From Chroococcus sp. FPU101 (GTDB lineage Bacteria > Cyanobacteriota > Cyanobacteriia > Cyanobacteriales > Microcystaceae), in assembly GCF_017312365.1 (NCBI RefSeq), contig NZ_BLJI01000014.1, positions 1 to 64,000 of the forward strand: a DNA stretch of 64,000 bases, in the 5' to 3' direction. Both the position numbers and the translations under genes were made by a program. Below the pieces are notes generated by a model that saw nothing but the letters and a program-made list of their open reading frames with translations, was not told the origin of the DNA and made no database searches. Below, in pieces: positions 3,830-8,293 of this stretch; the first letter of the stretch is position 1, and the number at the start of each line of letters is the position of its first letter.

Positions 3830-4573
3830 TTACTGATTCAAGGCTTTTAAGATTCGTTGCATATTCCCTAATAATCCTGTTTTTCTTGGTTTCGGTGTTT
3901 CTGTAGTCGGATTAGGCTCTTTTTGAATCGCACGATTAACGATGATCTCTAAAGTATCACCTGCGGGTTTTTGCGTTTCTTCGGCAATTAGTTCATATGC
4001 TCCATCTTTTTCTAGCCACACTTGCCATAAAGACGGATAAGAACGCAAGACAATTACGTCTTCTAGGGGCCTAAAATAATAAGCAGAAGTCAGACTATTT
4101 AAAAAACGTTCTCGTAGCTGTCTAGCAGCAAATCCAATTCCAACAATGGAAACATCTTCTAATTGAGGAATTAGAAGAATAACAGGGCGATCTTCTGCTA
4201 AATTACACAATTTTTCGACGATTTGCACTTCTGTTGAAGAAGGACAAATTAGTAAAAAGATTTGGTCATCAGGTGAGATTTTTGTTTCTATCCCTGTAAA
4301 ACGACTTCCTAAATCAGTAACTTTAAACCACGTTTCACCCCAGTCACGACGTGCTAAGGCGGCGGCTCCCGTATCCGCGAAGATAACTTTTAATCCCGAT
4401 TGATAAGATTCAAATAAGGACGCAAATTCTAAGGCTAATGGTTGTGCTTCTAAAGCAATTTCTGGAATAACTAACTCAATTTGAATCCGTCTTAATCCGT
4501 CTTCTAAGGCGAGTTTTGTCGCTTCTTTTGCCTGATTAATTGTTTCTTCTAATGTATTAGGAACTTGTAGCAT
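3830..4573 (-). CDS. DUF1995 family protein
   Basis: This 247-residue soluble protein begins MLQVPNTLEETINQAKEAT, followed by GLRRIQIELVIPEIA, the usual opening of DUF1995 proteins in cyanobacteria and plastids. A central region (about 75-190) contains the repeated beta-alpha pattern IFADTGAAALARRDW and ILLIPQLEDVSIVGIG. The C-terminus is basic. The plant homologue LPA3 helps assemble photosystem II; whether the cyanobacterial protein does so is not shown by the sequence. It is convergent with ndhD and monocistronic. Confidence 0.8.
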   Translation of the reverse strand: MLQVPNTLEETINQAKEATKLALEDGLRRIQIELVIPEIALEAQPLALEFASLFESYQSGLKVIFADTGAAALARRDWGETWFKVTDLGSRFTGIETKISPDDQIFLLICPSSTEVQIVEKLCNLAEDRPVILLIPQLEDVSIVGIGFAARQLRERFLNSLTSAYYFRPLEDVIVLRSYPSLWQVWLEKDGAYELIAEETQKPAGDTLEIIVNRAIQKEPNPTTETPKPRKTGLLGNMQRILKALNQ

Positions 4574-4761: not shown

Positions 4762-4799
4762 TTGACATTTTGACTCAAAATGAATACTATAAGTATCAT
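4762..4799 (+). promoter_or_regulatory. Methyltransferase promoter with C-box operator over the -10
   Basis: TTGACA at 4762-4767 and TACTAT at 4785-4790 are separated by exactly 17 bases, a near-consensus sigma-70 promoter 33 bases before the methyltransferase start. The -10 is embedded in an operator-like sequence: ATACT-ATA-AGTAT (4785-4797) is a perfect inverted repeat, and ACTATAAGTATCAT at 4786-4799 is repeated identically upstream of the regulator gene at 6533-6546. A regulator bound here would cover the -10, so repression of the methyltransferase is the natural reading. Confidence 0.65.
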
Positions 4800-4823
4800 C
4801 TTGCTTGAATGATTTTCTAGAAA

Positions 4824-5765
4824 ATGAAAAAAGTTCCTTTAAATCAAATATTGCTTGGCGACTGCCGACAAGTCATGCAAACACTTCCAGAAAATTATGT
4901 TTCTGCGTGTATTACTGATCCTCCTTACAATTATGAATTTATTGGTCACAAGTGGGATAACTCAGAAATTAAAAGACGTATTGAAAGAATTAATAAGAAA
5001 AACAATAAAACTTTAGTTAAAAATATTCCTTATGGTAGTGGTTTAGCTGGCGGCGTAAGAAATAAAAAATGGTATCAAAGAAATCGTAATAATATACTGG
5101 ATTATGAAAAATGGTGTTTTGAATGGGGTGAACAGCTTTTTCGTATTTGTAAACCAGGTGCAACAGTTCTTGTTTTTAACAGCACACGTACTGTAGCCCA
5201 TGTACAAGTAGCACTTGAAAACGCTGGTTTTTATGCAAGAGATATGCTCGTTTACAGAAGATCAAGTGGTATTCCTAAAGGTATTAATATTAAAAAACAA
5301 TTAGAAAGAAAAGGCTGTGATAATCCTGAACAGTGGGAGGGTTGGCATAGCTGTCTTAGAAACGAGTGGGAATCAATTTGTGTATTGCAAAAACCTCTTG
5401 TTAATAATTATATAGAAACTTTACTAGACTATGGTACTGGTCTTTTTTATACTAAAACTCTAGACGGTGGTTTTCAATCTAATATTCTTGAAGGCATCCC
5501 ACGGGAAAAAGAAGAAGACTTTAATCTACACTGTACAGTTAAACCAATTGCTTTAATGAAAAAGCTTGTTGAAATATTTGTCCCTCCCTTAAAAGACTCA
5601 ATTATTATTGATCCTTTTGCTGGCTCAGGAACCACATTATTAGCAGCTAAAGAATTACAAATTAACTACATTGGTGTTGAAATAGTACCTGAATATGTAG
5701 AAATAATTAATAAGCGACTCGACAAATTTATCGGTTCACAGGGTATGCTACCGCTCTCGTACTAA
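4824..5765 (+). CDS. Type II DNA methyltransferase (N6-adenine or N4-cytosine)
   Basis: This 313-residue enzyme methylates an exocyclic amino group in DNA. The catalytic motif DPPY lies near the N-terminus (Asp32), while the SAM-binding motif DPFAGSGTT is at about 263-271. This order is that of the beta class. DPPY favours adenine as target, but cytosine N4 is possible. The C-terminal half has LHCTVKPIALMKKLVEIFVPP, the usual helix before the SAM motif. It converges with the endonuclease gene and their coding ends overlap by 38 bases (5728-5765). The region is visibly more AT-rich than ndhD, consistent with acquisition. Recognition sequence cannot be told from the protein. Confidence 0.88.
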   Translation: MKKVPLNQILLGDCRQVMQTLPENYVSACITDPPYNYEFIGHKWDNSEIKRRIERINKKNNKTLVKNIPYGSGLAGGVRNKKWYQRNRNNILDYEKWCFEWGEQLFRICKPGATVLVFNSTRTVAHVQVALENAGFYARDMLVYRRSSGIPKGINIKKQLERKGCDNPEQWEGWHSCLRNEWESICVLQKPLVNNYIETLLDYGTGLFYTKTLDGGFQSNILEGIPREKEEDFNLHCTVKPIALMKKLVEIFVPPLKDSIIIDPFAGSGTTLLAAKELQINYIGVEIVPEYVEIINKRLDKFIGSQGMLPLSY

Positions 5766-6279
5766 GAAATAATTTTAAATCAAAACCGCTAATTTGTTGA
5801 ATAAAATTGAATGAATCATCCCCAGTATAAACTGTCCACTTTCCAACTTTACACGCTTTAATAGCAGCAGGTAGATTATCTTCTCTAAGAATTAAAAGTA
5901 CTGGTTCATAGTTAAAATTTCTCAACAAAGAGCCATAAGATTTGATTGTTTTATGTTTTCCAGAGTCACCTGAGCCAATACGATATTTTGTATCTATTGC
6001 AAATTGACCTACAATAAGATCACAAGGTTCATCTTTGTCTACTCTCAATGCTGGTTGAAAATTTTGACAATATGTTTCACACGTTTTAATAACTAACTTC
6101 TGCCAACACATACCGAGTTGGCGTCCCCAATACTGTCCGTTTTCTCTTTTTAGTGCAGGAGGAATGCTAAATACATTCATCAATAAATCATCTTCTTCAT
6201 TTTCTGCGCCATAAACCTTTTCAATAAAAGAATTTTGATACTTTTCTAAAATATTTTCTAGTTCTCTTTCAGTCATCAT
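5728..6279 (-). CDS. Type II restriction endonuclease, PD-(D/E)xK type
   Basis: The 183-residue product has CDLIVGQFAIDTKYRIGSG, in which Asp87 followed by Asp96-Thr-Lys98 fits the metal-binding core of PD-(D/E)xK nucleases. No transmembrane or DNA-binding helix-turn-helix is seen. It is placed next to a DNA methyltransferase and directly after a small HTH regulator, whose coding end it overlaps by 11 bases, which is the standard C-R gene order. The start ATGATG at 6279 falls in that overlap, so translation is probably coupled. I do not assign a specificity; the family could resemble ApaLI-like enzymes but this needs a profile search. Confidence 0.75.
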   Translation of the reverse strand: MMTERELENILEKYQNSFIEKVYGAENEEDDLLMNVFSIPPALKRENGQYWGRQLGMCWQKLVIKTCETYCQNFQPALRVDKDEPCDLIVGQFAIDTKYRIGSGDSGKHKTIKSYGSLLRNFNYEPVLLILREDNLPAAIKACKVGKWTVYTGDDSFNFIQQISGFDLKLFLSTRAVAYPVNR

Positions 6280-6481
6280 TACTCACTAAATCAGCTAGAT
6301 TTACAGATAAAGCATTAGCTATCTTGTTTGCATTAATCAAAGTTATGTTTCTTTCACCACGTTCAACAGAGCCGATATATGTACGATGTAAATTGCATAA
6401 GTCTGCTAGTTCATCTTGTGAAAGTTTTTTAAGTTTTCTAAAGTATCTTACTCTCTCACCAAATTGTTTTGTAATGTCCAT
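6269..6481 (-). CDS. XRE-family HTH regulator of the restriction-modification system (C protein)
   Basis: This 70-residue protein is essentially one helix-turn-helix domain: FGERVRYFRKLKKLSQDELA, then LCNLHRTYIGSVERGERNI and ANALSVNLADLV. This size and pattern match controller (C) proteins of restriction-modification systems, which dimerise and bind C-boxes. It lies first in the operon with the endonuclease. The candidate operator 52-65 bases upstream matches the canonical C-box core very closely on this strand (ACTTATAGTC). It is likely an autoactivator that delays endonuclease expression and also represses the methyltransferase promoter. Confidence 0.82.
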   Translation of the reverse strand: MDITKQFGERVRYFRKLKKLSQDELADLCNLHRTYIGSVERGERNITLINANKIANALSVNLADLVSNDD

Positions 6482-6500
6482 ACGCTGGTTAAGTTAGAGT

Positions 6501-6546
6501 CTTATTTCTGAAAAATAAGTAAATGTCAACAGACTATAAGTATCAT
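6501..6546 (-). promoter_or_regulatory. C-gene promoter with upstream C-box
   Basis: Read on the minus strand, the order is C-box ATGATACTTATAGT (6546-6533), then TTGACA (6529-6524), 17 bases, and a weak -10 AATAAG (6506-6501). The operator abuts the upstream side of the -35, which is the position for an activator. The weak -10 agrees with a need for activation. The same 14-base operator covers the -10 of the divergent methyltransferase promoter near 4790, so a single protein could have opposite effects at the two sites. Confidence 0.6.
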
Positions 6547-6712
6547 AATTGGCTTTAATGAGCTTCATTTTCTAATAAAATACGATAGAAAACTTTAATT
6601 TTGCTAAAAATTATTTTTAAATTGTCCACGTTTGCGTTGTTCTTTGTTCGACAGATTGTTTAATTAAGTTGAATAAAATCATTACATCACAACTAAGAAC
6701 TTTACACAATAA

Positions 6713-7945: not shown

Positions 7946-8293
7946 TCATCCCCCAGGCTTACACACGTTATAATCCTCATGAGAGATTACAGAAACAGGA
8001 ACTAAAAACGTTCCATAATCACGACAAAGTAAACGATAATGACGTGTCACGGGAATACTAATAATAAAGCGATCGTGACGTAGACGTTTACCATGGTAAT
8101 CCCTATAATTTCTGTGATTTTCTAATCCCTCAATAATGTCTCTTGCTTTAAGAACAACATTTTTAGGTAGTGTTCTCAAATCAATTGGATCTTGAGCAAA
8201 AGTCGCTTCCCAAGAATTTTTTTGTTGTTGCCTATCTTCCCACGTGATCAGATTTTGATCACAAGTATACTTTTTCTTTCTTTTGGACATCAT
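7946..8293 (-). CDS. Small basic protein with a RelE/ParE-like C-terminal half
   Basis: This is a 115-residue soluble protein. Residues 1-35 are basic (MMSKRKKKYTCDQ...). From about 55 on, LENHRNYRDYHGKRLRHDRFIISIPVTRHYRLLC followed by VPVSVISHEDYNVC has the beta-strand and basic-residue pattern of RelE/ParE-type mRNA interferase folds. No antitoxin gene adjoins it, and the key catalytic residues cannot be confirmed by eye, so a toxin role is unproven. It is on the same strand as the desulfurase, 66 bases upstream of it. Confidence 0.5.
   Translation of the reverse strand: MMSKRKKKYTCDQNLITWEDRQQQKNSWEATFAQDPIDLRTLPKNVVLKARDIIEGLENHRNYRDYHGKRLRHDRFIISIPVTRHYRLLCRDYGTFLVPVSVISHEDYNVCKPGG

Follow-up and report, generated by a model that had tools for sequence, protein, structure and literature searches.

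A predicted Esp1396I-type controller switch without a recognizable proximal C/R operator in a restriction-modification module of Chroococcus sp. FPU101

One 14-base word occurs twice in a restriction-modification module of Chroococcus sp. FPU101, at the promoter of a methyltransferase gene (M) and at that of a regulator gene (C) that is followed by an endonuclease gene (R). The module lies in a stretch of 64,000 nucleotides, which was analyzed as a whole and is referred to below as the window. The locus raises the question of whether a single C protein could repress M and activate itself plus the endonuclease, as the initial annotation had proposed. We conclude that the module is very probably an Esp1396I-type C-regulated type II restriction-modification system in which C represses M and activates C and R. 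We infer this binding and regulation from the identities of the genes, the co-occurrence of the motif with C, the conserved positions of the sites, and the published logic of Esp1396I, which together support the proposal as a prediction. That logic is already known (PMC11736437, PMC4041747), and the idea was thus right without being new; the unusual feature is that the proximal operator at the C/R promoter (OR) is missing.

Table 1. Coordinates of genes, promoter elements, and predicted operators of the module (positions in the window)
Feature	Position	Strand	Description	Score or match
M promoter	4762-4790	+	-35 TTGACA 4762-4767, 17-nt spacer, -10 TACTAT 4785-4790	
OM	4780-4800	-	Operator, predicted repression site over the M -10; core 4786-4794; holds 14-mer 4786-4799	21-bp PWM score 18.7
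M	4824-5765	+	N6/N4 DNA methyltransferase, 313 aa	Pfam N6_N4_Mtase 1.6e-34; PADLOC MTase_II 2.6e-42
R	5728-6279	-	Putative restriction endonuclease, 183 aa; D87, D96-x-K98; EcoO109I-like model	PADLOC REase_II 6.2e-6 (weak)
C	6269-6481	-	Controller protein, 70 aa, Cro/C1-type HTH	PADLOC Control_protein 2.7e-23; PDB matches
C/R promoter	6501-6529	-	-35 TTGACA 6529-6524, 17-nt spacer, -10 AATAAG 6506-6501 (4/6 matches)	
OR register	6512-6532	-	Register of the proximal operator in relatives; not recognizable in Chroococcus sp. FPU101	-13.5
OL	6527-6547	-	Operator, predicted activation site just upstream of the C/R -35; core 6533-6541; holds 14-mer 6533-6546	PWM score 22.4

The description of the module as one with a regulator, an endonuclease, and a methyltransferase held up, C, R, and M each being identified by profile or fold. 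It is a three-gene type II system in which the C>R operon is convergent with M, the 3' end of R overlapping M tail to tail by 38 bp and its 5' end overlapping C by 11 bp. All three reading frames are open and full length, and we found no terminator-like site between the module genes. C has the features of a C.PvuII/C.Esp1396I controller, being a small Cro/C1-type HTH protein that matches controller-protein models; its matches in the PDB were C.BclI (6.1e-16), C.AhdI (1y7y; 1.1e-13), and C.Esp1396I (1.8e-5). Mutation of T36, Y37, or R46 of C.Esp1396I weakens or abolishes DNA binding (PMC4041747). These residues, among them the base-contacting T36 and R46, are conserved, aligning to T34, Y35, and R44 of C, and they are invariant in 48 homologs; S52 of C.Esp1396I corresponds to N50. 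No second C homolog was found in the Chroococcus sp. FPU101 genome.

The sequence of R matched nothing credible in the PDB or Pfam, and its fold was needed for an assignment. The predicted structure (pLDDT 82; the prediction was run without one plasmid-derived row) aligned to EcoO109I over 160 residues with a Z score of 9.7 and an rmsd of 3.7, although identity is 7% and R has 183 residues to the 272 of EcoO109I. Foldseek also matched the model to Ecl18kI and PspGI with weak E-values. The catalytic candidates D87 and D96-T97-K98, which form a D...(D/E)xK motif, are conserved in homologs. R thus resembles a PD-(D/E)XK type II restriction endonuclease with a fold like those of EcoO109I, PspGI, and Ecl18kI, and its nuclease activity is putative.

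Is the repeated word more than coincidence? There is no copy of ACTATAAGTATCAT in the 5.29-Mb genome besides the two at 4786-4799 and 6533-6546, and its reversed control pattern has 0 copies. Identity between the two ends at exactly 14 bases on either side. On the minus strand, the C-side copy reads ATGATACTTATAGT and lies 52 to 65 bp before gene C. When the two 110-bp upstream regions were shuffled with dinucleotides preserved, a shared word of at least 14 bases arose in 3 of 3,000 shuffles. Taken alone, the repeat is therefore moderately unlikely (about 1 in 1,000 shuffles), and chance is not negligible. These shuffles are what speaks for the word being a chance AT-rich string or general promoter debris that no regulator uses. 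The doubt is removed by conservation in relatives: both positions are kept across phyla and the motif co-occurs with C, so that the comparative data already contradict a chance origin, which we consider extremely improbable.

Both copies are where the initial annotation had placed them; its description of one identical C-box is slightly too strong, in that the operators of about 21 bp differ beside the 14-mer. The adjoining base is A at the M site (AGTA) and C at the C site (AGTC), and this difference falls in the GTC triplet that T36 and R46 touch in structures of C.Esp1396I. Across the family, the half-sites of M operators are mostly TAC...GTA, those of distal C operators are TAC...GTC, and those of proximal C operators are GAC...GTC. 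The two sites are of the GACT-TAT-AGTC type (TACTTATAGTC at C and TACTTATAGTA at M), with one or both outer bases unlike GAC/GTC. Compared by eye, OL and the Esp1396I site ATGTGACTTATAGTC agree at 13 of 15 bases. The genome shows no enrichment of the 10-bp core ACTNATAGTC, which has 24 copies versus 74 for its reversed control. Because the core is not rare, operator specificity must come from the flanks. A genome-wide C regulon was considered and rejected, these counts giving no sign of more targets.

The conservation of the sites was assessed in relatives of the module. A search of genome contigs with R as the query returned no relative, and M was used in its place; M homologs led to 70 loci, and genome searches added further loci with R homologs. 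Wherever C was present, the genes had the same order, with C>R convergent with M as in Chroococcus sp. FPU101. We then used a PWM built only from the C promoters of other loci and genomes. In the window, it ranked OL first (22.4) and OM second (18.7), and the next hit scored 6.3, a gap of 12 bits. Hits of at least 8 bits numbered 114 across 45 C-bearing loci, and 108 of them lay within 150 bp of the start of M or C. After dereplication, M-promoter hits of at least 10 bits were present in 16 of 26 C-bearing loci versus none of 16 C-less loci (Fisher test, ~3e-5). Relatives from Cyanobacteria, Proteobacteria, Chloroflexota, and Acidobacteriota keep both operator positions. On these comparisons, the motif is the predicted operator of C, traveling with the C gene, and both of its positions appear to be old.

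The arrangement varies within the family. At Microcoleus-type loci, C is preceded by two or three operators in tandem, and OM is mostly not recognizable. In these and in L030, L028, L043, and L115, the tandem operators lie 30 to 67 bp upstream of C in a 17-bp or 32-bp register (the usual pair has 15 bp), and many loci of this group have no recognizable M operator. Geminocystis-type relatives (L046, L047, and L121) have a C operator at the M promoter only, and none was found in the 400 bp preceding C in L046 or L047. Given these two types, both halves of the switch are dispensable within the family, and each can be lost separately. L037 has an additional strong C operator (28 bits) at position 3831, some 170 bp upstream of M, and L103 has a similar one at position 424. 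A viral-labeled contig from IMG/VR (L122) carries M and R homologs with 72% and 61% identity and a C operator at the M promoter. R and M occur without a detectable C in L006, L041, L042, L093, L094 to L097, and others, including cyanobacteria of the same family.

At the M promoter, the elements and the 17-nt spacer are located as the initial annotation had described them, with the motif covering the -10. The M transcript is predicted to start near 4797. The -10 of an alternative, overlapping promoter, TTGACT-18-TATCAT (4770-4799), likewise lies within the 14-mer. In relatives with an M-side site, a -35 with 0 to 2 mismatches at a spacer of 16 to 18 was present in 18 of 27 distinct contexts, versus ~14% expected at random. 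A site over TACTAT, preceded by a -35 at a distance of about 17 nt, also occurs in Methylobacter, Aeromonas, Azonexus, Chloroflexota, and others. By sequence and conservation, a predicted C operator thus overlaps the M promoter, as it does in Esp1396I-type systems.

The C/R promoter likewise agrees with the earlier description, in which the motif stood just upstream of the -35 and was followed by a 17-base spacer and a weak -10: TTGACA-17-AATAAG is found on the minus strand. It was absent from the list of our promoter scanner, which demands T at position 6 of the -10. A distal operator beside the C/R -35, as expected of an Esp1396I-type system, is thus present. The C/R start is predicted near 6494 (minus strand), and the center of OL lies ~43 to 44 bp before it; in relatives with the usual pair, the OL center lies 43 to 45 bp before the ATG. 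Leaderless C transcripts are a common property of C operons (PMC4824078), and if the C transcripts of the relatives are leaderless, the geometry of OL in Chroococcus sp. FPU101 would be the same as theirs.

This geometry bears on a different role for C, namely, that it serves mainly to repress, either at both promoters or chiefly at M, with C/R transcribed constitutively through TTGACA and OL left as a relic or a roadblock. A perfect -35 at the C promoter, the absence of OR, and the Geminocystis-type relatives that retain OM without a C operator would all fit such a role, as would the example of C.Kpn2I, which represses M and uses a roadblock to control its own gene (PMC6237814). However, OL is intact (22.4 bits) and lies at the same distance from the predicted start as the activating OL sites of relatives, the -10 is weak, and a site that serves only repression should cover the -10 or the spacer rather than lie upstream of the -35. 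We therefore regard this role as unlikely and retain activation from OL as the predicted function of the C-side site.

OR, the proximal operator that confers self-repression in Esp1396I-type systems, was not recognizable. The score in its register, -13.5, is within the range of random maxima (median, -18.3; 95%, -6.9; 99%, -0.7), and testing registers 12 to 19 in the C promoter revealed no hidden OR. Including that of Chroococcus sp. FPU101, 44 distinct C promoters have a distal site; in 42 of them, a second site scored 2.7 to 31.1 at registers of 15, 17, or 32 bp, and the two lowest scores were the weak -4.5 of L091 and the -13.5 of Chroococcus sp. FPU101. The place of OR beside OL is taken by the consensus -35 TTGACA, which L043 and L115 share while retaining further operators. 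Because the sisters in the M tree keep at least two operators at C, OR appears to have been lost on the Chroococcus sp. FPU101 lineage. A weak, cryptic OR, bound only cooperatively, could still be present. As it stands, the absence of OR predicts a C/R promoter that is activated without self-repression.

The order of events that we infer for the switch would be as follows. On entry into a new cell, in which there is no C, M would be transcribed from its good promoter and the host DNA would be methylated. The C/R promoter, with its consensus -35 and weak -10, would be nearly silent at this stage, slow leakage yielding C. A C dimer on OL would then recruit RNA polymerase, so that first C and then R would rise by positive feedback, while a dimer on OM would cover the M -10 and lower M. 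In the relatives, C and R would then be held in check by a second dimer at OR; in Chroococcus sp. FPU101, they would be limited only by dilution, C dimerization, and the weak promoter elements.

A weak R may have made the loss of OR tolerable; alternatively, the module may be in decay. Four columns that at least 90% of 70 R homologs conserve are changed in R (E54Q, T108K, L109H, and F112I), and because of these changes, the module may be partly decayed. In the predicted structure, E54 is in the long helix preceding the catalytic strands and may be an active-site glutamate. A natural system that has exchanged OR for a consensus -35 and in which C still represses M and activates itself would latch restriction by positive feedback alone, a state that an attenuated R (E54Q) might make tolerable; we put this forward tentatively, as a possibility that is less than probable. 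A somewhat more doubtful account is decay proper, in which restriction is no longer selected, OR has been lost, R has been altered, and M and C are left over. The four substitutions, an OR register at chance level, an M branch of 0.18 (about twice that of the nearest sister, L030), and the absence of the module from the same site in a sister species fit decay. Against it, the three frames remain open and full length, R retains D87, D96, and K98, the OM and OL sites are strong, and residues 108 to 112 of R vary in the intact relative L006 as well.

The genomic site itself could be compared in the nearest same-genus genome (G393), in which the flanking DUF1995 and class V aminotransferase (nifS-like) genes are neighbors, separated by a 577-bp spacer that takes the place of the restriction-modification genes. 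The insertion site is a variable one, and the module appears to have been acquired. At the corresponding spot in that genome (contig C114:41040-41616; L130), the spacer holds a reading frame that we named AbrB-like by eye, and a similar frame adjoins R in L042. In Chroococcus sp. FPU101, a protein with a ParE-like toxin domain (Pfam PF24732, 6.7e-28; 7946-8293, minus strand) is encoded beside the aminotransferase gene.

The 45 C-bearing loci span at least five phyla, and in them the C and M operators vary independently: OM with two C-side operators, three successive C-side operators, an operator site at M alone or at C alone, and, in Chroococcus sp. FPU101, OM with OL and without OR. Such a set permits direct tests of the share of each operator in timing and toxicity, for which information has so far come mostly from engineered promoters.

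Among known systems, the closest parallel is Esp1396I, which has three operators: C at OM represses M, a dimer on OL activates C/R, and a second dimer on OR represses it (PMC4041747, PMC3758141, PMC11736437). Chroococcus sp. FPU101 shares with it a C/R operon convergent with M, a single M operator and a C/R operator for one C protein, the core ACTTATAGTC, the same DNA-contact residues, and, as predicted, repression of M and activation of C/R by C. It differs in lacking a recognizable OR, in the consensus -35 of its C/R promoter, in that its C transcript has a predicted leader of ~12 nt rather than being leaderless, in the TAC/GTA half-sites of OM, and in that its C is distantly related (PDB E-value, 1.8e-5). 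The module would thus work like Esp1396I at M and OL, a likeness that does not extend to strict identity of the C/R promoter. C.AhdI belongs to the same family and AhdI likewise uses activation from a distal site, but there M represses its own promoter (PMC11736437), a task predicted to fall to C in Chroococcus sp. FPU101. In PvuII, a non-repressing promoter variant was made in the laboratory by altering the proximal C-box (2B), which removed self-repression (PMC3695507). The Chroococcus sp. FPU101 system is a natural counterpart of that engineered promoter: the state without self-repression seems to have arisen naturally here and is combined with predicted C repression of M.
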